Program-made: the position numbers and the translations under genes
Notes under the pieces: model-generated
The model's database searches: none
What the model was told of the DNA's origin: nothing
Seen by the model: the letters and a program-made list of their open reading frames with translations, nothing else
IMG/VR virus record: IMGVR_UViG_3300017772_002961
Span: 1 to 35,293 of that record
Source of the DNA: a virus
Reading direction: 5' to 3' (one strand)
Length of the DNA stretch: 35,293 nt
Shown: piece after piece, positions 9,617 to 35,293 of the stretch
Position numbering within the stretch: the first letter of the stretch is position 1
How the letters are laid out: each line of letters begins with the position of its first letter

Positions 9617-9624
9617 TATCTTTG
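9617..9624 (+). promoter_or_regulatory. Promoter -7 box (TATCTTTG)
   Basis: TATCTTTG fits the Bacteroidota -7 pattern TAnnTTTG exactly. The matching -33 TTTG is not present; only TTTT lies at the right distance (9594-9597). It would begin a short rightward transcript that ends at the strong terminator at 9739-9767. Confidence 0.45.
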
Positions 9625-9649: not shown

Positions 9650-9769
9650 ATGAGTTTTATAGTAACGGTTGGCTGGGCAGGTGTCTTCACACTGTGTTTC
9701 ACCATTGCACTACATTCGAACAGGTACGGAAAAACACTAAGACCTCGCTATCAACGAGGTCTTTTTTAA
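9650..9769 (+). CDS. Possible 39-aa membrane peptide or small RNA
   Basis: Between the -7 box at 9617-9624 and the terminator at 9739-9767 an ATG frame encodes 39 residues. The N-terminal half is hydrophobic (FIVTVGWAGVFTLCFTIAL) and the tail is basic (RYGKTLRPRYQRG), which is the layout of a single-pass membrane peptide. However, the frame ends inside the terminator U-run, and its codons (GTC, TTC, ACC, CTG, GGC) are unlike the A/T-ending codons of the other genes. A roughly 140-nt non-coding RNA is an equal alternative. Low confidence as a protein. Confidence 0.3.
   Translation: MSFIVTVGWAGVFTLCFTIALHSNRYGKTLRPRYQRGLF
9739..9767 (+). terminator. Strong intrinsic terminator
   Basis: AAGACCTCG (9739-9747), a 7-base loop, then CGAGGTCTT (9755-9763) form a perfect 9-bp stem that runs into TTTTT. 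It ends the short rightward transcript begun near 9630. Confidence 0.9.
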
Positions 9770-9788: not shown

Positions 9789-9938
9789 ATGGCATGTAAG
9801 TGTGGAAAAAATGAAGAATGTAAATGTATAAAGAGAGATAATAATGCTTTCGAAGACTACATGAAAGATTTAACGGAGAAGGATCAACCAGCTTGTTCTA
9901 TAGAAGATCAAGAAAATTGTGAAAACTGCGGGAGTTAA
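9789..9938 (+). CDS. Cys-rich small protein (49 aa)
   Basis: The frame begins MACKCGKNEECKC, giving two closely spaced CxC pairs (C3, C5, C11, C13). After a charged helical middle (NAFEDYMKDLTEKD) it ends with C36, C44 and C47 (NCENCGS). Seven Cys in 49 residues, arranged as CxC and CxxC, suggest metal binding. The A-rich leader AAAAAGTT and A/T-ending codons match neighbouring genes. It lies between a terminator and the promoter-like box at 9950, so its own promoter is unclear. No family recognised. Confidence 0.55.
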   Translation: MACKCGKNEECKCIKRDNNAFEDYMKDLTEKDQPACSIEDQENCENCGS

Positions 9939-9949
9939 TAATAATTTAT

Positions 9950-9957
9950 TATATTTG
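9950..9957 (+). promoter_or_regulatory. Promoter -7 box (TATATTTG)
   Basis: TATATTTG is an exact TAnnTTTG match and is identical to the -7 box of the strong promoter at 10262-10269. The -33 element is weak: only CTG lies at about the right distance (9926-9928). A transcript from here would start near 9964 and cover the gene-free, pairing-rich segment downstream. Confidence 0.5.
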
Positions 9958-9963
9958 CAAAGA

Positions 9964-10217
9964 AGCACTCATAGAGTATCACCCCCCAGGTAGCCAATAA
10001 GGGGTCAGAAGTTGGATTGTAGGTTCAAATAGAACTAGAGTTTTCTCCAATAGCTTCGAAAAGAGTAACGTATAGGCTTTAGTTAGGATAAATTGCACAC
10101 AGGTAAGTGCGGTGAATTAACATCAGTATTATTATCCTTGGGTCCCCATCGGGAGCACTGCTAAATGCTAAAATCACACTTGAAATCTAAAAACCAAGGG
10201 GGATACCTGTGTCTTTT
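9964..10217 (+). ncRNA. Candidate structured non-coding RNA
   Basis: These 254 bases hold no convincing gene but many pairings. ACACAGGTA (10097-10105) pairs with TACCTGTGT (10204-10212), followed by CTTTTT, a terminator-like end. Inside it CCTTGG (10136-10141) pairs with CCAAGG (10194-10199), AGTGC (10106-10110) with GCACT (10155-10159), and a CCC/GGG hairpin lies at 10143-10153. In the 5' half CCCC can pair with GGGG and CCAA with TTGG in an interlocked way (about 9980-10017), and GAAGC with GCTTC. An upstream -7 box and the final U-run make a transcription unit plausible. I recognise no known RNA class. Confidence 0.45.
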
Positions 10218-10237
10218 TGGATCCTCTTCAAATAAAT

Positions 10238-10269
10238 TTTGTATTGTAGTAAAAACTTTTATATATTTG
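10238..10269 (+). promoter_or_regulatory. Bacteroidota-type promoter of the right arm
   Basis: TTTG (10238-10241), 20 bases, TATATTTG (10262-10269) is a full match to TTTG-N19-21-TAnnTTTG. It lies 22 bases before the ATG of the GroES-like gene and should start the rightward small-gene and terminase operon. Confidence 0.85.
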
Positions 10270-10291
10270 TGGAAACATAAAACTATATATA

Positions 10292-10555
10292 ATGGCTTTT
10301 AAACCAAACAACTCGTGGGTAGTGTTACCCGATCCAACATCAGAAACAACAGACTCTGGAATCATTTTAGATGAGTCTACAAGAAAATCTAGAGCTACTA
10401 ATATTTTAGAAGTTATCTCTGTTGGCCCTCAATGTAACTTTGTTAAGAAAGGAGATATTGCTGTAATAGATCCTAGAACAGAAGCAATTCAATTAGATAT
10501 TGATGGCAAAGCTTGTCTATTAGTTGGTGAACATCAAATAGTAGGTAAGCAATGA
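10292..10555 (+). CDS. GroES-like co-chaperonin
   Basis: The 87-residue product follows the GroES fold along nearly its full length. An N-terminal strand (NSWVVLPDP) is followed by a mobile-loop region with SGIILDE near residues 22-28, the position of GGIVL in GroES. Then come ILEVISVGPQ, VKKGDIAVIDPRTEAIQLDIDGKACLLVGEHQIVG, which aligns with GroES strands VGDIVIF through ILMSE and IL. Like phage T4 gp31, such a protein probably caps host GroEL so it can fold the phage capsid protein. No GroEL gene is in the window. It is the first gene after the promoter at 10238-10269 and overlaps the next start by 4 bases. Confidence 0.82.
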   Translation: MAFKPNNSWVVLPDPTSETTDSGIILDESTRKSRATNILEVISVGPQCNFVKKGDIAVIDPRTEAIQLDIDGKACLLVGEHQIVGKQ

Positions 10556-21307: not shown

Positions 21308-21333
21308 GTGGGGGAGAAATCCCCCACTTCTTT
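21308..21333 (+). terminator. Intrinsic terminator after capsid gene
   Basis: GTGGGGGA, a GAAA tetraloop, TCCCCCAC (21308-21327) forms an 8-bp GC-rich stem followed by TTCTTT. It should end or strongly reduce transcripts after the capsid gene, helping a high capsid-to-downstream ratio. Confidence 0.88.
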
Positions 21334-23933: not shown

Positions 23934-23970
23934 AATTATAAGGGGGCAGGTTCCCCTTATAATTTTTTTT
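23934..23970 (+). terminator. Strong intrinsic terminator
   Basis: AATTATAAGGGG (23934-23945) pairs perfectly with CCCCTTATAATT (23953-23964) around a 7-base loop and runs into eight T residues. It is the strongest terminator in the window and separates the 304-aa gene from the fibre genes. Confidence 0.93.
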
Positions 23971-24497: not shown

Positions 24498-27400
24498 ATG
24501 GCTTCTAAAAATTGGACTCTAAAAACTCCTGTTACCGGAAAAATTATTGAATTAACGTCTGGAAGTGACGTTTTAATAGAAGGATCTTCGTATAATTTTG
24601 TATTACCTACTGATCACGGCGTAACAATTAATCAAATTGATTTTACTTATCGTGCCTCAAACGGGTCAGAAACAGAGTTTTCATTTGAAGAATTTATAAA
24701 AGTTGTACCAAAATTAAATTTTAAGGTAGTAGAAGTTGTAAGTAACACTATTTACGTTATTGAGTATTTATCTAATGATAGATCTCTTGATTTTCCTGAA
24801 GTTGTCATACCTTTAGAGCATTACACACGAGGTAAAGTTACTTTTTTAGATGATCGCGGAAGAGAAAAGACATACACTTTACCTACAAAAATAGACGACT
24901 TAACTTCGATTGCAGGGACTTTAGATACGAAATGTCTTAATTATAGTCATATTACTACTACTGAGGCTGGAGTTCCAGATGTTTGTTTTTTAGATCCTAG
25001 CAAACTGGAAAGTCCATGTACAGATAATCGAGCTTGGAATTCTGTTAAACTTGTAGACGAGAAAAATTCTGCTTCTAGTACGGTTTTCGAAGCTAGTTGT
25101 AAGTATGATCAATTTGGTTTTGAAAGTACTAAAGAGTTAACTGAAGATCTTACTGTAAACCCTGCAGCGAAATCTTACGAGTACATATCTATACCTCATC
25201 AATATGAAGGGGGTATGACTTGGGCGTTTGGAGCTTTACTGTCCCCATTAATAACAAATATTGAAAATGTTTTTTGGGATATTAGCTATGATTCAGCGGT
25301 TGGATTTGTTGCTGACTCTAATTACACTGATGAGGGGATGGTTGTAGTTGACCTGCCTGCTGGGGAAAATGTTATTGCTCTTGAGGTAGTAACGTCAAAT
25401 AATACTTTTTTTACTTATATTACTGTTATTGTTGATGCTGTTGTATTAGGATGTACAGATATAAACGCTAGTAATTACAATCCAGACGCTACTACTAACG
25501 ATGGAAGTTGTGTAGGCATTACAAAAGGCTGTATGGATAATGGTTTGACTTATACTAGCACCATTACAGCAGGGGGATTCCCAGTACATACTGTTATTAA
25601 TCCGCTAATTCCAGGACTAGCTGCAACTAATTTTAATAGTAACGCTAACCAACCCCTAGCTGACAGTTGTGTGTACGATATATGTACAGATCCTGGAGCA
25701 AGTAATTATCATAACGCAGAAGAACTAGGATTAGACACAACACAGTACACAGGATGTCAAACTTGTTGTACTTACGTTGGAGTTGTTAGAGGGTGTACAG
25801 ACCCTGGTGATGTAGATGCAGATTTAAATCCTGGAAATATTTATGGAAGTTTTGATGTAGCAACTACTACTGGATCAACAGCTTCAAATGGATCTGTTAC
25901 AATGAATCCTGCTAACAGTAATTGGGATTTTAATCCTCATGCAAATGAGCAATCCGGAAGATGTTTGCCAAAACTTCCTGGATGTATGGATCCTTTGGCT
26001 TCAAATTATATTACTCCAAGTGGTAATCCAGCTATAGATATAAATTGGCATTTACCTGATACATGTGAATACACGGTGTGTTCGGATTCTACAGCATCTA
26101 ACTACAATAAACTTGATGGGACTGGCGCTAATGTTAATTCTACCGGAGTAGATGATTGGGGATATACTGCTAACGGAGGCAGCTGGACTGAAACAGGTTA
26201 TTGGGTAGCTGAAGATTTAGGGACTCAAACTGCACTAACATCTAGTGATGAGCCTTATAATGCAGATACTACTTTATGTACATTTACAGTTCCTGTAGAT
26301 GACTTATGTGCCAATGTTGATGAATTGTTACCAAGAATAGCAAGTAGAAATGTATCTTCCGGTGATTTAGGGTATATGAATACTTTACTTGGGGTTGCTC
26401 CAAATATGCATCAGTTAAACCCAGCTACAGGAGATTCTTGTATTTCGGATTTAACTAGAACAGAGTCAGTAACGGTTTCTGGATTTACATATAATAAAGT
26501 TACAGAAGAAAGAGTTACCACTCAAGTAATTACTCAAAATAATCCTGTTTTATATTTAACAAATCCAGAATTAAATGGAACTATTGTATATAATTATACA
26601 GGAAGTACAGGAGGTAATTCTCCAATAACTTTATCGAATATTTCTGCAAATGACGCTCCCGCAGTTGCTGCTGCTTTATCTGCAGCTAATTATAATGGAA
26701 GTTTAGTACCTACAGTATATTATTATTTTAGAGTTTCTGATATTACTCAAGATCCACTAAATGGTGTGTCGCTGGCTCCAGAATTCTCTCAAAACCCAAT
26801 TGAACATTTATTTAATGATTCTAACATAACTAAAGTTAGTTATCAACAAGGTACGTATTTTTATGTGCCTGGAGGATCATTAGCAAATTTTCAAGCTGGA
26901 AACGACAATACTGATATTCCAATAGGATACGCATTAAATGCTGACCCTGTTGGCGGGCTTGCGTATAATCACTCTTCAGCAACAGGATGTACAGGATTTA
27001 CAAGTGAAGCAATGTACACTGTTTATAGAGTCGAAGTAAGAGATTATTGTGTTGACACAGCATTAAATTTTGTAATTGGCGCAGATTTAAGTAGTGTACC
27101 AGAAGATCTTGCTATTAATAATACTCCTGTTTTTAACAGTTCAGTTGTAGGTTGTACAGATGAGACGGCTACAAATTTTAATTCTGAAGCTACTATTTCA
27201 GGAAGTTCTAATTATTTAATGAGCGATTGGGCAAATTATATTAATGACGGAGGGTGTTATATTTCTGGGTGTGTAGATGAGTATTATTCTGCATCAAACC
27301 CTTCAAATAATTTAATTGTTTCAGAACATTTATTAGAAGGTACCGATATACCGCTGCAAGTTGGATTAGAAGTTCCAGAGTTTGGAGGTGTAATTTACAG

Positions 27401-30400
27401 AATTTATAATGGACAGGCATACATATGCCCTTTAGAAAATCATTTAAGTAGTAGTAGTTTTAATTACGATTCTGCTATAACTGCAGCTGCAAATGCTACT
27501 ACAGGAGGTTTTACTGATTGGTCTTTACCAGATGCAGATCATTTAATTGCAATGTATAAAAATATTCATAGCTCAACATCGGGGTATGAAGATGAATTTT
27601 ATTTTACAGACGCATCTTATTGGAGTAATACTATTCACACGGATAATGTTTACTCTCACTCGTATAATTTTGCTACAGGTCCTGCTACAACAGATGCAAC
27701 AGCTGTAGCAACTGAATTAAAGGTTAGATTAAGTAGAAGAGTTAGTATTGACTCTCTTATTGAAGGAAGGTATACTAATAATTGTGGAGACGGAGTTAAC
27801 GCGTTTGGTTGTACAGACCCGGCAGCATCTAACTACATTGCTTCAGCAATTGTTAGTCCTATTGTAGGAGATACAGCAGATGATTGTATTTATGATTTTC
27901 ATATTGATGATTGGACAGAAGGAAACCAAAATTATAATGACCAAATAATTAGTTTAGGGTACGAAGATAGTCAAGACTTTGTAAATTCTCAAGAGAGTTA
28001 TAGTGACAGTGTAGGGTTTGAAGGTTTTGGTAATTATCTAATTCATTATAGTGCTGTTCATGCTTGGAACCACCCAACTTTACAAGGAGTTATACTACCT
28101 TCTTTCTCATATTGTTTATCTGAAAGATTAGTACCATTTACCTTTACGGTTGTTGCTAATGGTACGCCTGCAACTGTAACTGCTACTCCTGCAGAATCTT
28201 TTGGTTATAACGACATAGTTAACCAGTACAGTAATAAAATACAAGTAATTGGTAAAAAAGATTCTAGTACTGGTAATGTTAATTTTATTTTATATGCGAC
28301 TAATCCAGAAAAAGATTCAATTTATACTTACAGTTTAGCTTCAGGGGCTTATTTAGCGTCTACTCCTACTACATATTTATTAGGAAACAATACTAGTTAT
28401 GCGGATCGTATAATGCCTCATAGTGCAAAAAATTTGGCTACTCAATTTTCAAATTTAGGATATGTTACACCTGAAAATGGTGGATTTAAAAGATCTCCTC
28501 ACGTTTACATGTTTAGGTTTGCAAAAAATTTAACTTATAAAGTAAACCCTATAACAGGCCTTCCGTGGAATTCTTACACTATGCTTCTTGATCTTTTTGG
28601 AGATTCTAACGTTTTAATAAAAGATCTGGCAGGCGACTCTTATTGGCCAATGGTTAATTTACACAACTTAAACGAGAGCAATACTAACTCAAGTGACCCT
28701 CAGTCAAATTCTTATCACAGTGATAATCCAGATTACATGCATTTGTCATTTGGTAGTTTTTTAAGTTCAATAACTTCAGATCCTACAGCAGGAGAAGAAC
28801 TACTTGGTAGTTCTACTTTCCCAGACAATAATACAAATAATGTTTGGACAAATGCCGGAAATGCTTCAGATGCATTTACATTTGTTGATTCAGGCGGAGG
28901 TGATTACGTAGCTAGACGTGCCAGTGTTAGTTCAAATTTAAGAACTGGTTTACACCAATCTATAAGTGTTACTCCAAACAAAAAATATCAAATACTTTAT
29001 AAAAAGAAAGTTGATATAAGTAATACAGATAGTAGTTACCCAGATTATGCTAAAACATATGTAGAACTACAACCAGATGGAACTAATTTTGGTCCAAGTT
29101 CTAAGTACGGCGAAAATCAATACTTTTCTGATAATACAGAACAAACTGTTATTGATTACTTTACTTATGTAGGGTCTTTAACTACACTAGATGTTGTGCT
29201 ATACGTAGAAAGTACTTGGGAAGGAGATATTACTGAATTTAGTATTAAAGAAGTTGCACAATATCCAGACGGATATATTACCCAGCAATTTAAAAACAAC
29301 AATGTTGCGTGTGATGACGCTAAAACTGTTGGGTATTACACATACCAACTTAATACAAACGGCGAGGTTCTTGATAAATATGATTTTTCTCCATATTTAG
29401 AATACGCAGATGAAGTCTCTGGGTGTATGGATGAAACTGCTTTAAATTACGATCCAGCCGCAGTAATAACTGCTGGTAACTATACTGACTGTATGTATTA
29501 CCTTACTTCTTGTACAGGGCATGCTCCAGAAATTAAAGTAGTTCCTCAAGATGAGGATGCAGTAAATGGAGTTGGGTGCGCTCAAGCTTATACTGTAACT
29601 GTAGAAGCTTGCCCATCTGTTTTGTCAAATGCTCAGATTAATATGGTTTTAGGTCAGCTACAAACTAATACTACTAGTTCTCCTATTACAATAGGTGATT
29701 TTGTGTTAGCTCCGTTTGCTTCGGCGTATGTGCCAATATTACAAATTGCTGATATTGAACCTTGTATTGAAGGTATACAACAAACTGATTCTCCAGCGTT
29801 AACTGCTACTTTTACTTACGACCCTACGCTTGATAGTCATAACTTTTCTAATATTGCGCAAACTGCAAATATTCCGTTTATTACTGGCGGCGCAGGCGTG
29901 CCTTTAAATGCAGATATAGAATATCATGCAGATTTTCAACTTCAATATGAAGAATATTACACAAATCCTGACGGATCAATACCTTTTACTCCACAGTCAT
30001 TAACTTATCAGTTTAATGAAACTACACAGTTTAATGGTAATTCAATTATTTCTCCAATAATTAATGGGTGTACAACTCTTCTTGCTTTTAATTATAACGA
30101 AAATGCTACATGTAATGATGGTTCATGTATTGATGTAGTTAACGGTTGTACAGATACTGATGCCTTTAATTACAATTCGAGTGCTAATACCGATGATGGT
30201 TCATGTATTCCTGTAGTACTAGGATGTACAGATCCTGCAGCTCATAATACTAATTATAATATAAATGTAGTAGAAGATGATCCATCTGTATTAGGTACTG
30301 CTCCATATGGTAATATATCAGATGTGTCTGCTATATATGGGCCATTTCCAAATGCTACAACAGACAACACTGCAGTTAACACGGATAACGACAGAATATG

Positions 30401-33400
30401 TTTTTATTGTCCTGCTATTAATGGGCCTACCGGAACATCAGATCAATTTACTGTAGAGTATCTAGAAGAAAGTGTAGTTGGAGACGGTATACTTTATACT
30501 CCACCAAGTACCTCAAATTTAGAGTTTACTTGGACTCCTTCAATAAATACAGGAGATGCAAGTTTAAGTATGGCAACTACCTATGAAACTTCTGTAACTT
30601 TAAAGTATAGAAAAATTCACGTTTTTATAACAATTGACAGTGCTTTAGATGGTCCTTATGAACCTGGTGTATCCTATTATATTGATAAAACACATGTTTT
30701 AGACGAGTTTGAAGTTGTAACATCTCTTGTAACTTATGACGATTTACTAGATGGCGTTTTAGTAGATTATTACAAAATTAATGCTCCTGCACAGATATAT
30801 GTTTTAGACAGCTTAGCTTTTACCGCGTATTACAATGCGCCTGGAGGGGAAAGTAACGTAAATAGATGCGCTCAAACTATTACACATCAAGTCAATTCAG
30901 ATTTATATCCAAATTTAATATTAGGGTGTTTGGATAAAGAGGCTTTTAATTTTTATGCTAATTCTAATTTTTTAAATAGTACTGGTACAACAAATGTATT
31001 TTTCAGAGAAACGGAAGGGGGGGCATTTACTGAAATACTTAATACCGCAGTTCCAAATGTAGATGTAGACAGTTATACAGTTAGAGATTTATGTATACCG
31101 GTTGTAGAAGGTTGTACGGATTCATCGGTTTTAGATGGAACTCCAATTGCAACAAATTATAATCCATTAGCTAACACTGATGATGGTCGATGTACGTATG
31201 ATGGGTGTACTGATGAAACTGCTGACAATTATGAAGCTTGGGCAACTAATGATAATGGTTCTTGTGTAAAGTCAGGATGTATGGAGTCTTGGGCTGTAAA
31301 TTATGACTCAACTGCTACCAGAGATAATAACTCTTGTTATACATATGGATGTACTGATCCTAATGCTTATAATTCTCATTGGTGTTTAGATGATAGTAAT
31401 CCTTGTTTTGGAGCATCTTCTGACTATACCGTTTCTGCAATTACCTCAACTAGTTGTTACTATGAGGGTTGTATGGATTCAGGAGAAGGAGTTAATCAAA
31501 GCGCTATTAATTTAATTACAGAGTTTGCAAGTGAAAATACAGGTAATACTACATTAAATGATGTTTTAGAAAATGTTCCTGTAGGTATTACTCATAACAT
31601 GAATAATGAAATAGCGGCAGTTCAATCTCTTCCAGTAAACCCAGGAGAAGCTGCAACTAATTACCAAGCTAATGCTACAATTTCTGGAGCTTGTATCTAT
31701 GAAGGATGTACAGATCCTAATGCTTCTAACTATGATGCAGACGCAATACAAGACGCTACACCTTCATTGTGTGTATACGAAGCATGTATTGATGAAACTG
31801 CTACTAACTTTGGAGAAGGAATTACAGTAACTGGTAATGTTTCAAATCAAGCAAACGCTCAAAACAGTTGCTTCGGGCCAGACTTACTTGCTCCAGCAAA
31901 CAAGGCTAATATAGAATATTGGGGGTCTACTACATACACAAGTATAGTAGATGAATCTTCTAATGTAAAAGTAGAAACTAATGGGTCTTATACAGGTGAA
32001 GTAGCTGCAAGAGTAGTTCTTAGTCCGTTTAATCCTCAGCCTAGCGCTGTAGGGGAAGTAGTTTCTAAATACAGTATTCTTGAATATGATAGCACTGTTA
32101 GCCAAAACTCTGTGGGAGTACTCACTTCTTTAGAGTACCCGCTAGTCTCTGCTAGTGACATTCTTCTTTATAATTATTATTTTGAAGTATTAATTAAAAG
32201 TGATACACCTGTAACTGCAACTATTAAAGAATTTAACAATGTTACTTGGGACTCTTCCACACAAACTATTAATACCGCTTCTTGGAGTTACGGTTTTGAT
32301 AGTTTAAGTTATACTGAGCTTTCAGCTACAGTTTTAGCAAACCAAGGAGACAAATATTTTGCAACTAAATGGAAACCTCATTACCAAGCTCAATTAATTA
32401 TTTTAGAAATTTCTGGTGCAGCAGCATCTTCTAACTTTATTATAGACGATATAGTTTTAAAACGTGAAACATGTCAAGATGTAGTTTTAAATCAAGAAAG
32501 TTTTAGCAGTTACGCAGGAAGTGAAAGCGGTATTACTTTAGGGTTAGATAATGCAGAATTATATTCTGTTGTAGGAAATACAAACAATGTAGATGGAGAC
32601 TTTCATATTATAAGAACTCACATAGATCAAGGAGAGTACGGGCTTTATGCTAATGGTGATTTATGGCCAACACGAAAAGGTTCTGATTATTTTGCTAACC
32701 CACTTACTGAAACTTGGAGAAGGACTTATCATTTAGGAGATGGGCCTAGAGTTGGGGTTTGGATAACTCCTTATTACGAAGCTAAATTTAGAGCTTCGTG
32801 GCCTGCTTGGACTTATAATTCAAATTATACTCACATTACAGAAGAGCCTAGAGCTGTTTTATCTCAGCTTTTTAATTATGGAGAAGGTAGTATTTATAGA
32901 TTAGACTTTAAAGCTAAAATAGGTTCTAATTGGGATACTGACAGAAATAGACAAGTTGGAATTTCAGATTATGTTGGATCTACTCATAATGAAGCGGATA
33001 CAGCTGTTGGTATACATTACCTTACTGAAGTTAATCCAACTTACTCGACAACGGGAGTTTATAACACTATTCCTAACAATACTAATAAATTTGTATTAGA
33101 AGAAGATTGGGTAGACTACACAGTATATTGGGTTGCTTCTACTCATTCAAATGGTATTGCTTTTTATAATTTTAACACAGGAGATCCGCATGAATTCTTA
33201 GTAAAAGATATTTCGGTTGTAAGAGTAGATCCACAAGTATTCCATACATCGTCTGATACATGCTATCTATTTGGATGTGGAGATTCTGGGCTATATCCTG
33301 CGGGGCACGCTAACGAAGGAGATTCTTGGGCGGAAAATTATAATGAAGACGTAAGCTCTGATATAGGAATTGATTTACCAGTTGGCGCTGTAGGACCTAA

Positions 33401-35293
33401 TGGAGAAGAAGCATGTAAGCTTGGCGGGTGTATGATTCCAGGTATGGATAACTACAATGAATTTGCTACATATGATGATGGATCTTGTTATAAATACGGA
33501 TGTACAGATAGCGGTCTTATTAATGCTCCTTATTCTCCGTACCCAGGAACTTTTACTTTAGAAACCTGGCTAGCGACAAGTGAGTTAAATACAGTAGAAA
33601 ATTACATAGGAGGTTATCCTGCAGATAATTACGACGCATTAGCTACTATTAATGAGGTGAGCGTAACAGATGACTCTAATCCATGTACATACACAGGATG
33701 TATGGACCCAGGTACACCGCCTAATTATCATATTAATTATAGTGCACTATACACTACTCAAGATAATAGTACATGTATAGATGCGATTGGAGGATGTTCA
33801 AGATCTCCTTATCAAAATTATAATCCAAACGCAAATACAAACGATACTAATAGTTGTTGTATACAATTAGCGGGAACTGACTCTGATGGTGACGGTATTT
33901 TTGAGTTACAAGAAAATCCATACGGATATGCTCCAGCAAATTATACATATAGTGGAGTGTCTTCTACTGCTAAACCAATTTTATTTGAATTATATTCAGC
34001 TAATTGTACAGGCGCTGCTACTACAGGAGTTCGATTTAAGTCTGGGTATAGCACTTTCCCAGATGAGCTTTTAAATGCTGACGGAACGCCAAAAATTAGT
34101 AATATTACTGTAAACGCTTATCGTCAAAGTAATGGAGAAATTGACATTGACGACACTACATTCCCTACTCGAACATTTACGTATGACGAACTTGTTGCTG
34201 GAGTTACTGATATTTCAATTTATAATTCAGTTCCAACAGTATTAGCTGTATTTATTGTAATAAAGTTTAATTATAGTAATGTTGCTCAAAGTGGGGATGA
34301 TGGAAATACTGGTACATCTTGCGAGTATAAGCTTGATTTACATTTAGATGATACTTGTGCTACGCATCAGGGGTGTACGGACGACGGATGGAACACTGCA
34401 TCTATTGATGGGTTTAATGCTTTAACTGGTGGTTTTCCGCAACAAGGATTTAATCCAAACGTTAATCAGCATGTAGCTAATGATTGTACTGGTGCGCATG
34501 TTTTAGGTTGTATGGACACTAATTACGCTATACCTGCAAATCAGCATGTAGGTGTAGGAGCGTCTACAACTCAAACATCTCATCCTACCTTTAATAAAAC
34601 TACAGCGCCTTCAGGTAATGACGTAAGAGGTGAAGCATACGATGGATGGAGTACTTCAGCTACTATTAATATGTATGATGATACTTACGCTAACAATAGT
34701 GCCGGTACATTATATGGAACAAGCTTAGGAGCGTACCACCCTATTTATACTGATTTAACTTTAAGTGATGGAACAGATCCATCTAGTAGTCAGTATGGTG
34801 CTACGCCGTCTCCTGATACGTTTGAAGGTTCCGTGTATGGATGTTTCCCTAAAGTATTTGGATGTAAAACTGCTGGTAAGTTTAACTTTAATAATTGGTA
34901 CCATGATGGAAATATAAACCCTACAACAGGTGTCGCTTACGCTGCAACAGATTTTCCTTTATTAAATTTTGGAATACAATATAATCAAGACGTAGATGTA
35001 AATCCATCTACAGGAGTTGTTTACACAAATGAAGAGCTATTACAAAATGTTCCTTATTTATATAATGTAAATACTGATGGTACTTCTACTAGTAGTGCAA
35101 CAGATAGTTGTTTTGATGTTGTGCCTGGGTGTACAAATTCAAGTGCAGCTAATTTTATCTCTAACAATTTAGGTGGTGAAGCTACCACAGCACTCGCGCT
35201 TGCAAACCAACCAAGTACATGGGGGGTAGCTGTAAATCAAGAAAATCAGTCTTGTTGTTTTGATGAAACTGATCTTCCTGCTAACGCAACTTA
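24498..35293 (+). CDS. Giant modular fibre/adhesin with GCTD repeats, partial (3598+ aa)
   Basis: The frame stays open from the ATG at 24498 to the window end, with frame checked at many points. Residues 1-317 have no signal peptide and end in a beta sandwich (VVVDLPAGENVIALEV). From residue 318 about 25-30 degenerate Cys-rich repeats follow, with the pattern GC(T/M)D, A.NY and DDGSC. An Lcl_C/DUF1566-like domain lies at about 955-1090 (GGFTDWSLPDADHLIAMY, SYWSNT, VRLSRRV). Jelly-roll modules like carbohydrate-binding domains lie at about 1434-1590 and 2470-2910 (FIIDDIVLKR, FLVKDISVVRV). A Ca-binding-like DSDGDG is near 3127. It most likely forms a very long virion fibre or adhesin that binds host glycans. 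A minor virion or secreted role cannot be excluded. Confidence 0.85.
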   Translation, partial: MASKNWTLKTPVTGKIIELTSGSDVLIEGSSYNFVLPTDHGVTINQIDFTYRASNGSETEFSFEEFIKVVPKLNFKVVEVVSNTIYVIEYLSNDRSLDFPEVVIPLEHYTRGKVTFLDDRGREKTYTLPTKIDDLTSIAGTLDTKCLNYSHITTTEAGVPDVCFLDPSKLESPCTDNRAWNSVKLVDEKNSASSTVFEASCKYDQFGFESTKELTEDLTVNPAAKSYEYISIPHQYEGGMTWAFGALLSPLITNIENVFWDISYDSAVGFVADSNYTDEGMVVVDLPAGENVIALEVVTSNNTFFTYITVIVDAVVLGCTDINASNYNPDATTNDGSCVGITKGCMDNGLTYTSTITAGGFPVHTVINPLIPGLAATNFNSNANQPLADSCVYDICTDPGASNYHNAEELGLDTTQYTGCQTCCTYVGVVRGCTDPGDVDADLNPGNIYGSFDVATTTGSTASNGSVTMNPANSNWDFNPHANEQSGRCLPKLPGCMDPLASNYITPSGNPAIDINWHLPDTCEYTVCSDSTASNYNKLDGTGANVNSTGVDDWGYTANGGSWTETGYWVAEDLGTQTALTSSDEPYNADTTLCTFTVPVDDLCANVDELLPRIASRNVSSGDLGYMNTLLGVAPNMHQLNPATGDSCISDLTRTESVTVSGFTYNKVTEERVTTQVITQNNPVLYLTNPELNGTIVYNYTGSTGGNSPITLSNISANDAPAVAAALSAANYNGSLVPTVYYYFRVSDITQDPLNGVSLAPEFSQNPIEHLFNDSNITKVSYQQGTYFYVPGGSLANFQAGNDNTDIPIGYALNADPVGGLAYNHSSATGCTGFTSEAMYTVYRVEVRDYCVDTALNFVIGADLSSVPEDLAINNTPVFNSSVVGCTDETATNFNSEATISGSSNYLMSDWANYINDGGCYISGCVDEYYSASNPSNNLIVSEHLLEGTDIPLQVGLEVPEFGGVIYRIYNGQAYICPLENHLSSSSFNYDSAITAAANATTGGFTDWSLPDADHLIAMYKNIHSSTSGYEDEFYFTDASYWSNTIHTDNVYSHSYNFATGPATTDATAVATELKVRLSRRVSIDSLIEGRYTNNCGDGVNAFGCTDPAASNYIASAIVSPIVGDTADDCIYDFHIDDWTEGNQNYNDQIISLGYEDSQDFVNSQESYSDSVGFEGFGNYLIHYSAVHAWNHPTLQGVILPSFSYCLSERLVPFTFTVVANGTPATVTATPAESFGYNDIVNQYSNKIQVIGKKDSSTGNVNFILYATNPEKDSIYTYSLASGAYLASTPTTYLLGNNTSYADRIMPHSAKNLATQFSNLGYVTPENGGFKRSPHVYMFRFAKNLTYKVNPITGLPWNSYTMLLDLFGDSNVLIKDLAGDSYWPMVNLHNLNESNTNSSDPQSNSYHSDNPDYMHLSFGSFLSSITSDPTAGEELLGSSTFPDNNTNNVWTNAGNASDAFTFVDSGGGDYVARRASVSSNLRTGLHQSISVTPNKKYQILYKKKVDISNTDSSYPDYAKTYVELQPDGTNFGPSSKYGENQYFSDNTEQTVIDYFTYVGSLTTLDVVLYVESTWEGDITEFSIKEVAQYPDGYITQQFKNNNVACDDAKTVGYYTYQLNTNGEVLDKYDFSPYLEYADEVSGCMDETALNYDPAAVITAGNYTDCMYYLTSCTGHAPEIKVVPQDEDAVNGVGCAQAYTVTVEACPSVLSNAQINMVLGQLQTNTTSSPITIGDFVLAPFASAYVPILQIADIEPCIEGIQQTDSPALTATFTYDPTLDSHNFSNIAQTANIPFITGGAGVPLNADIEYHADFQLQYEEYYTNPDGSIPFTPQSLTYQFNETTQFNGNSIISPIINGCTTLLAFNYNENATCNDGSCIDVVNGCTDTDAFNYNSSANTDDGSCIPVVLGCTDPAAHNTNYNINVVEDDPSVLGTAPYGNISDVSAIYGPFPNATTDNTAVNTDNDRICFYCPAINGPTGTSDQFTVEYLEESVVGDGILYTPPSTSNLEFTWTPSINTGDASLSMATTYETSVTLKYRKIHVFITIDSALDGPYEPGVSYYIDKTHVLDEFEVVTSLVTYDDLLDGVLVDYYKINAPAQIYVLDSLAFTAYYNAPGGESNVNRCAQTITHQVNSDLYPNLILGCLDKEAFNFYANSNFLNSTGTTNVFFRETEGGAFTEILNTAVPNVDVDSYTVRDLCIPVVEGCTDSSVLDGTPIATNYNPLANTDDGRCTYDGCTDETADNYEAWATNDNGSCVKSGCMESWAVNYDSTATRDNNSCYTYGCTDPNAYNSHWCLDDSNPCFGASSDYTVSAITSTSCYYEGCMDSGEGVNQSAINLITEFASENTGNTTLNDVLENVPVGITHNMNNEIAAVQSLPVNPGEAATNYQANATISGACIYEGCTDPNASNYDADAIQDATPSLCVYEACIDETATNFGEGITVTGNVSNQANAQNSCFGPDLLAPANKANIEYWGSTTYTSIVDESSNVKVETNGSYTGEVAARVVLSPFNPQPSAVGEVVSKYSILEYDSTVSQNSVGVLTSLEYPLVSASDILLYNYYFEVLIKSDTPVTATIKEFNNVTWDSSTQTINTASWSYGFDSLSYTELSATVLANQGDKYFATKWKPHYQAQLIILEISGAAASSNFIIDDIVLKRETCQDVVLNQESFSSYAGSESGITLGLDNAELYSVVGNTNNVDGDFHIIRTHIDQGEYGLYANGDLWPTRKGSDYFANPLTETWRRTYHLGDGPRVGVWITPYYEAKFRASWPAWTYNSNYTHITEEPRAVLSQLFNYGEGSIYRLDFKAKIGSNWDTDRNRQVGISDYVGSTHNEADTAVGIHYLTEVNPTYSTTGVYNTIPNNTNKFVLEEDWVDYTVYWVASTHSNGIAFYNFNTGDPHEFLVKDISVVRVDPQVFHTSSDTCYLFGCGDSGLYPAGHANEGDSWAENYNEDVSSDIGIDLPVGAVGPNGEEACKLGGCMIPGMDNYNEFATYDDGSCYKYGCTDSGLINAPYSPYPGTFTLETWLATSELNTVENYIGGYPADNYDALATINEVSVTDDSNPCTYTGCMDPGTPPNYHINYSALYTTQDNSTCIDAIGGCSRSPYQNYNPNANTNDTNSCCIQLAGTDSDGDGIFELQENPYGYAPANYTYSGVSSTAKPILFELYSANCTGAATTGVRFKSGYSTFPDELLNADGTPKISNITVNAYRQSNGEIDIDDTTFPTRTFTYDELVAGVTDISIYNSVPTVLAVFIVIKFNYSNVAQSGDDGNTGTSCEYKLDLHLDDTCATHQGCTDDGWNTASIDGFNALTGGFPQQGFNPNVNQHVANDCTGAHVLGCMDTNYAIPANQHVGVGASTTQTSHPTFNKTTAPSGNDVRGEAYDGWSTSATINMYDDTYANNSAGTLYGTSLGAYHPIYTDLTLSDGTDPSSSQYGATPSPDTFEGSVYGCFPKVFGCKTAGKFNFNNWYHDGNINPTTGVAYAATDFPLLNFGIQYNQDVDVNPSTGVVYTNEELLQNVPYLYNVNTDGTSTSSATDSCFDVVPGCTNSSAANFISNNLGGEATTALALANQPSTWGVAVNQENQSCCFDETDLPANAT
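25449..25511 (+). repeat. First complete GCTD repeat unit
   Basis: The 21-codon unit is the best-preserved copy: GCTDINASNY, a short linker, NDGSC. It marks the start of the repeat region of the giant gene. At DNA level the copies are strongly diverged, so this is a protein repeat. Confidence 0.85.
27366..27765 (+). other. Lcl_C/DUF1566-like domain in the giant protein
   Basis: Codons 957-1089 give the order expected of the Lcl_C family: a start strand (FGGVIYRIYNGQAYIC), then GGFTDWSLPDADHLIAMY (DWxLP motif), YWSNT, SYNFATG and VRLSRRV. Proteins with this domain have a C-type-lectin-like surface and occur in adhesins and phage fibres. It suggests a ligand-binding site. Confidence 0.7.
30066..30299 (+). 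repeat. Tandem GCTD repeat block 1
   Basis: Glycine codons of successive units begin at 30066, 30144 and 30222, a 78-base (26-residue) period. Each of the first two ends in CNDGSC or TDDGSC followed by a hydrophobic pair (VV) and Asn or Leu before the next GC. Confidence 0.8.
31110..31420 (+). repeat. Tandem GCTD repeat block 2
   Basis: Units begin at 31110, 31203, 31275 and 31347, the last three spaced 72 bases (24 residues). They end in DGRC, NGSC, NNSC and NPC. This is the densest array in the visible part, and each unit carries two Cys at conserved places. Confidence 0.8.

Follow-up and report, generated by a model that had tools for sequence, protein, structure and literature searches.

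CrAss-like phages rank among the most abundant of all known phages. Two RNAs described elsewhere serve as references for the present one: the put RNA of phage HK022, a processive antiterminator that acts as nascent RNA and has two stem-loops, and the EAR RNA of the Bacillus eps operons, a structured 5' leader thought to alter the processivity of RNA polymerase over a long operon. The phage RNAs GOLLD and ROOL are of much greater size and assemble into multimers made only of RNA (PMC12286853). In crAss001 and phi14:2, transcription of the late genes is attributed to the host RNA polymerase (PMC8375218, PMC10136315), and the primary sigma factor of Bacteroidetes has TAnnTTTG as its -7 consensus (PMC7366714). 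Our literature search found no description of how crAss-like phages turn on their late genes, nor of an RNA such as the present one in these phages. Here we analyze a stretch of ~250 bases that, by sequence comparison, is best explained as a structured leader RNA that forms a new family in crAss-like phages; lying where the late (virion) block begins, it probably helps control late transcription.

A gene-free stretch at a divergent junction

The DNA analyzed here (the window) is a 35.3-kb virus record from a crAss-like phage, as judged from its terminase (phrog_6681), portal (phrog_6547), and major head protein (phrog_11589); a CrAss ring protein (Pfam) is also encoded. Genes up to ~9456 run leftward and belong to replication, while those from 10292 run rightward, with a GroES-like gene followed by late and virion genes. 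The structured RNA sits at the junction of these two divergent blocks. An earlier note on this DNA had described positions 9964-10217 as gene free, and no open reading frame of 50 amino acids or more overlaps them; the -7 box it had seen in front was upheld as a Bacteroidetes box, TATATTTG, at 9950-9957. The features of the junction are as follows.

9950 to 9957, + strand: -7 box TATATTTG (TAnnTTTG) of the predicted RNA promoter, from the box-P1 spacing in relatives and the published consensus (PMC7366714)
9962 to 10213, + strand: structured RNA (promoter-proximal leader) from helix P1 to the conserved tail; match to covariance model R1 of 210.6 bits, E 1e-48, model positions 1-246
10262 to 10269, + strand: second -7 box TATATTTG, upstream of the GroES-like gene; a box lies at about that distance past the tail in 46 of 72 relatives
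10292 to 10555, + strand: GroES-like co-chaperonin, the usual first late gene; phrog_3188 E 1e-12, Pfam Cpn10 above cut-off

Other elements of the window were noted in passing. A 49-amino-acid Cys-rich open reading frame (MACKCGKNEECKC...; 9789-9938) is flanked by a terminator (9739-9769) and the RNA promoter; it has relatives in eight loci, some of which run straight into the RNA with no promoter box. A further short + strand transcript could be bounded by a TATCTTTG box at 9617 and by the hairpin with a T-run that ends near 9769. The open frame at 24498-35293 runs past the window end and encodes at least 3598 amino acids, the first 700 of which matched no Pfam or PHROG family.

Relatives of the RNA

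The folding energy of the region was unremarkable relative to shuffled sequences (z -0.55), and a search of the window against Rfam 15 (4227 families) at the gathering score gave no match; the question was therefore settled by comparison of relatives. At permissive E-values, the RNA region, its relative L102, and the gut phage cr128_1 gave only chance-level Rfam matches, which agrees with the earlier statement that no known class fits. A blastn search of the region against a phage collection returned no real match, because the annotated phages are too distant, and the conserved motif was not found in a collection of genome contigs.

Related viral loci were collected by searches with the GroES-like protein (22 loci) and the terminase (80 loci). 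The gene-free stretch is kept at 70-80% identity in many of them, while its flanks and the adjacent genes vary. At least 119 viral contigs match a conserved 22-base pattern, and a profile search detected the element in 179 of 219 loci, several of which share one contig. All 15 larger records tested carry a single copy; the only record with two matches has them at its two ends, as would a circular genome cut inside the RNA. The model R1 was built from relatives, the window not being among them, and its full-model matches outside the building set included the window, L019-L022 (E about 1e-9), and cr128_1 (27.2 bits). The distant relatives L019-L022 have another sequence in place of the P8/P9 junction, and a long insertion in the P3/P4 region sets L064, L077, L083, L174, and L182 apart as a variant group.

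Compensatory changes support one nested fold

In an unsupervised covariation scan, most of the top pairs fell into one nested fold, the predicted elements of which are listed below.

9962 to 9966, + strand: 5' strand of P1 (GAAGC), pairing with 10053-10057; more than 10 different fully complementary P1 combinations among relatives
9967 to 9977, + strand: P1a hairpin, 9967-9970 with 9974-9977, in one subgroup only; 100% paired (21 sequences), two-sided changes in 3 of 4 pairs
9981 to 10005, + strand: P2, 9981-9985 with 10001-10005; covariation 9982/10004, both alignments
10011 to 10051, + strand: P3, 10011-10016 with 10046-10051, enclosing the GUAG/UAGAG internal loop; 100% paired in both groups
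10023 to 10035, + strand: P4, 10023-10026 with 10032-10035, AAAUA loop; top covarying pairs, tree-aware E 0.0016 and 0.0045
10053 to 10057, + strand: 3' strand of P1 (GCTTC); same P1 complementarity, subgroup alignment
10070 to 10076, + strand: GUAUAGG, candidate pseudoknot partner of tail positions 10206-10212 (CCUGUGU); core nearly always paired (50 sequences)
10078 to 10165, + strand: P6, 10078-10082 with 10161-10165; covariation 10079/10164, 10081/10162, and 10082/10161
10085 to 10138, + strand: P7, 10085-10091 with 10132-10138, closing the P8/P9 junction; covariation 10085/10138 and 10091/10132 (tree-aware E 0.016 for the latter)
10095 to 10110, + strand: P8 hairpin, 10095-10098 with 10107-10110; both alignments
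10111 to 10124, + strand: P9 hairpin, 10111-10114 with 10121-10124, loop AAUUAA; both alignments
10145 to 10153, + strand: P10 hairpin, 10145-10147 with 10151-10153; covariation scan and both alignments
10195 to 10213, + strand: conserved 3' tail CAAGGGGGATACCTGTGTC; GGGG invariant in alignment A1

The main set comprised 50 relatives without the P1a hairpin. In these, 95% of the cells in proposed pairs were standard pairs, 24 pairs had changes on both sides, and the compensatory cells numbered 243, versus 64 in shuffles and 13 to 31 in slid controls. An independent subgroup of 21 sequences, which includes the window, was 96% paired, with 23 two-sided pairs and 111 compensatory cells versus 35 after shuffling. 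Against a tree-aware null, in which the observed changes were re-placed along the tree, three pairs were significant among all column pairs, all three of them inside the fold; in the restricted test, 15 of 50 pairs were. P1 occurs in versions that include GAAGC/GCTTC, GCAAC/GTTGC, CCAAT/ATTGG, and CTAAT/ATTAG, and P3 is block-replaced between the groups (AUCGGA/UCCGGU versus GUUGGA/UCCAAU). The compensatory changes among relatives thus support the fold and, together with the promoter spacing given below and the absent Rfam match, strongly support the view of the earlier note that the divergent control region holds a new structured RNA. On this comparative evidence, a structured RNA at ~9962-10213 is almost certainly real.

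Variable pairs contained 75 G-U cells versus 8 A-C cells in the larger group and 51 versus 5 in the other, and the selected RNA is therefore that of the + strand. The same asymmetry bears on a different reading of the locus, as a DNA element such as a replication origin or a packaging site at the junction of two gene blocks. The RNA locus does lie at a divergent junction, and in Crassvirales a GC-skew inversion separates two replichores (PMC10136315); however, compensatory changes that tolerate G-U and not A-C indicate selection on the RNA of one strand, and the promoter-to-P1 spacing is fixed, which leaves a DNA element very improbable.

Two details of the original description held in the window but not in its relatives. 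The proposed 9-bp closing pair of ACACAGGTA (10097-10105) with TACCTGTGT (10204-10212) is literally present; nonetheless, it was rejected, since in both alignments its pairing stays at the level of shuffled columns (63.3% versus 63.3% in the 50 sequences, 69.8% versus 69.1% in the 21). ACACAGGTA turned out to be the conserved end and loop of hairpin P8, and the opposite strand becomes AACTATATC. Similarly, the final U-run exists as a short run at 10214-10218 but is not conserved.

The tail pseudoknot (10070-10076/10206-10212) is suggestive, being kept by one-sided changes only. A hairpin P5 (10063-10066/10076-10079) was omitted because it competes with P6, whose covariation is better, and a tail hairpin (CUUG/CAAG) was left aside, since many relatives are unable to form it.

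Promoter, ends, and downstream genes

In 66 of 72 loci, 4 to 8 nt, mostly 4 nt, separate the end of the TAnnTTTG box from the first base of P1, a fixed spacing that puts the predicted transcript start at P1. The group of L005, L011, and L146 has no promoter box before the RNA. At the other end, a hairpin with a T-run within 130 nt of the tail was found in only 1 of 72 relatives, so that the RNA lacks an intrinsic terminator in the other 71; an intrinsically terminated small RNA was rejected on this count. In ~22 of the 72 marine loci, another rightward gene begins 20-60 nt past the conserved tail with no promoter between, and the gut relatives likewise have a late-direction gene at this distance from the tail and no promoter before it. 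Given the lack of a terminator and the late-direction gene right after it, the RNA is most likely the 5' leader of a late transcript, and from this arrangement we consider a cis leader likely. Of the independent structured RNA proposed earlier, the structure therefore stands, while its independence is doubtful.

The genes after the RNA vary and include those for lectin-like folds, M15 peptidase-like proteins, small zinc-ribbon-like proteins, small basic proteins, and GroES; in four loci (L006, L007, L115, and L123) an opposite-strand gene comes next. Since the place of the RNA is constant while these genes vary, its role is unlikely to be tied to one gene. The spot just past the RNA (window 10214-10291; also L143, L124, L166, L099, L161, and L148) is a gene-insertion hot spot. 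A second promoter box lies after the tail and before the GroES-like gene in 46 of 72 loci.

Three further readings were weighed against these arrangements. A leader acting in cis after transcription, by protecting the 5' end from decay or by promoting or regulating translation of the first gene, would suit both the start of P1 at the predicted transcript start and the genes found 20-60 nt past the tail in many loci. The first gene, however, differs greatly between phages and often has its own promoter after the RNA, and a multi-branched RNA of ~250 nt exceeds the needs of simple end protection; we regard this reading as somewhat unlikely. Less likely still is a free, trans-acting small RNA with a processed 3' end, binding mRNAs or a host or phage protein (e.g., RNA polymerase, in a 6S-like manner). 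Its own promoter, its compact fold, the second promoter after it, and the four loci with an opposite-strand gene would all accord with such an RNA, but no intrinsic terminator follows it, about a third of the loci and the gut relatives have a gene directly behind it, and neither 6S nor any other Rfam family matches. 6S RNA itself was rejected for lack of an Rfam match and because it is a long hairpin with a central bubble, versus the multi-branched fold seen here. Finally, the highly conserved unpaired stretches (the P8 and P9 loops, the GUAG/UAGAG loop, and the AAGGGG tail) recall ligand-binding RNAs, and on this reading the RNA would switch late expression in response to a metabolite or a late phage protein, as a riboswitch or a protein-responsive attenuator. 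Against this, neither a terminator hairpin nor another expression platform follows the RNA, no Rfam riboswitch matches, and the downstream genes have no common metabolic theme, and such a switch seems to us improbable.

Gut relatives and crAss001

R1 matched the gut phage cr128_1 (Mahlunavirus, Steigviridae) with a genome-wide E of 6.3e-5. The match begins shortly past a TACATTTG box, upstream of the first rightward gene, and blastn links cr128_1 to crAss001 (6e-11) and to cr111_1 (6e-5), in which the element occupies the corresponding place after a TAnnTTTG box. By eye, the gut and marine RNAs have three features in common: P4 is surrounded by a GUAG...UGAG loop, UGAA or UGGAA comes after a P6-like helix, and the tail resembles AAGGGATnnnTATAC. 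R1 scored at most 2.7 bits on crAss001 560-1100, and the crAss001 link is hence drawn from the cr128_1 blastn match, the motifs, and the position; within region 640-1000 of this phage, the + strand start is predicted at the first base after TATGTTTGCACC. On the whole genomes of cr60_1, cr115_1, phi14:2, Fpv20, and crAss001, R1 gave no match, which limits model-based family membership to the marine relatives and cr128_1. The crAss001 region was not found among plasmids.

The divergent junctions of cr60_1 (L220, ~2510-2560) and cr115_1 (L224, ~975-1050) have a common stretch, TTCC.T.CCGATACTA.AT.CAGGGGAGT, which is unlike the present RNA and is possibly another element. In cr60_1, positions 710-923 of L220 (- strand) hold the Rfam RNA RAGATH-7 (169 bits).

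CrAss001 is grown in the laboratory, and strand-specific RNA-seq data for it are public (PMC8375218; BioSamples SAMN16810643-SAMN16810654). With a diverged relative at the same place in this phage, transcription of the RNA could be tested at once and its function addressed by ordinary genetics.

Late terminators and a possible effect on elongation

The rightward block contains a strong candidate terminator far downstream of the RNA.

23934 to 23964, + strand: strong intrinsic terminator inside the late block; recurs at this place in all 7 late regions tested

In the window and six relatives, this terminator (dG -12 to -18.6) precedes a gene of ~165-177 amino acids by 22-70 nt, and none of the seven regions has a TAnnTTTG box in between; - strand controls gave 0 or 1. 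Another strong intrinsic terminator of the late block lies at window 21308-21327, also with no TAnnTTTG before the next gene.

The constant place of the leader, the varying next gene, and an operon with terminators suggest an effect on elongation. Comparison of the sequences has established the fold and its strand, the promoter spacing, the single copy (15 records), the synteny, the missing terminator behind the RNA, and the terminators within the late block; beyond these, we infer that the RNA is transcribed, stays on the late mRNA, and acts on elongation. Host RNA polymerase would start where the leftward and rightward blocks meet, at the TAnnTTTG promoter; a promoter of host type fits the view that this enzyme reads the late genes. 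Its first product would be the structured RNA, with the 5' end sealed by helix P1, after which it would continue into the late genes (GroES-like, terminase, portal, and major head protein). Through an effect in cis, either direct or via a protein, the folded nascent RNA would enable the polymerase that is making it to pass the strong terminator or terminators within the late block, in the manner of the put RNAs but not as one of them.

This antitermination-like effect of nascent RNA on the host polymerase is the reading we prefer, and we hold it tentatively, as plausible short of probable. Several observations count against it. The second promoter box in 46 of 72 loci could make late mRNA that lacks the RNA, TAnnTTTG boxes also precede some late genes (window 14802 and 18679), the L005/L011/L146 group has no promoter box before the RNA, and four loci have an opposite-strand gene next. 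The internal terminators may also only tune stoichiometry. Doubtful, if conceivable, is the wider proposal of an RNA-based late switch in Crassvirales, in which a leader modifies the host RNA polymerase in cis both in marine lineages and in gut Steigviridae, including the cultured crAss001. If true, it would mean that tens of kilobases of late genes are transcribed through internal terminators and that nascent-RNA antitermination occurs in phages of Bacteroidota. An RNA family with a fold demonstrated by covariation at the start of the late block offers a concrete handle on how late genes are switched on, and it could be added to Rfam.

Comparison with known RNAs

The present RNA resembles GOLLD and ROOL in being a phage-borne, conserved, structured non-coding RNA without a known function; unlike them, it is smaller, lies promoter-proximal to late genes, and has no Rfam match. 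RAGATH-7 (RF03159), an Rfam small-RNA candidate, is similar in length (about 208 nt) and likewise occurs in a crAss-like phage, cr60_1. The scan that finds it there, however, reports none in the window, crAss001, or L021 regions, and in cr60_1 it has another place and strand than the present RNA.

The EAR RNA, like the probable leader described here, is a structured RNA at the 5' end ahead of a long operon; it differs in belonging to another host phylum, and the present fold is larger, multi-branched, and unmatched in Rfam (window, L102, and cr128_1). The put RNA is much smaller and has no sequence or structure in common with the present RNA, for which readthrough is a proposal. Yet the present RNA is, like put, a structured RNA with terminators in the operon ahead and with no dependence on the identity of the next gene, and it is predicted to lie, as put does, at the start of a phage transcript. 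This predicted position follows from the distance between promoter box and P1 (4-8 nt in 66 of 72 loci), and the put-like terminators within the operon were found in all seven late regions.
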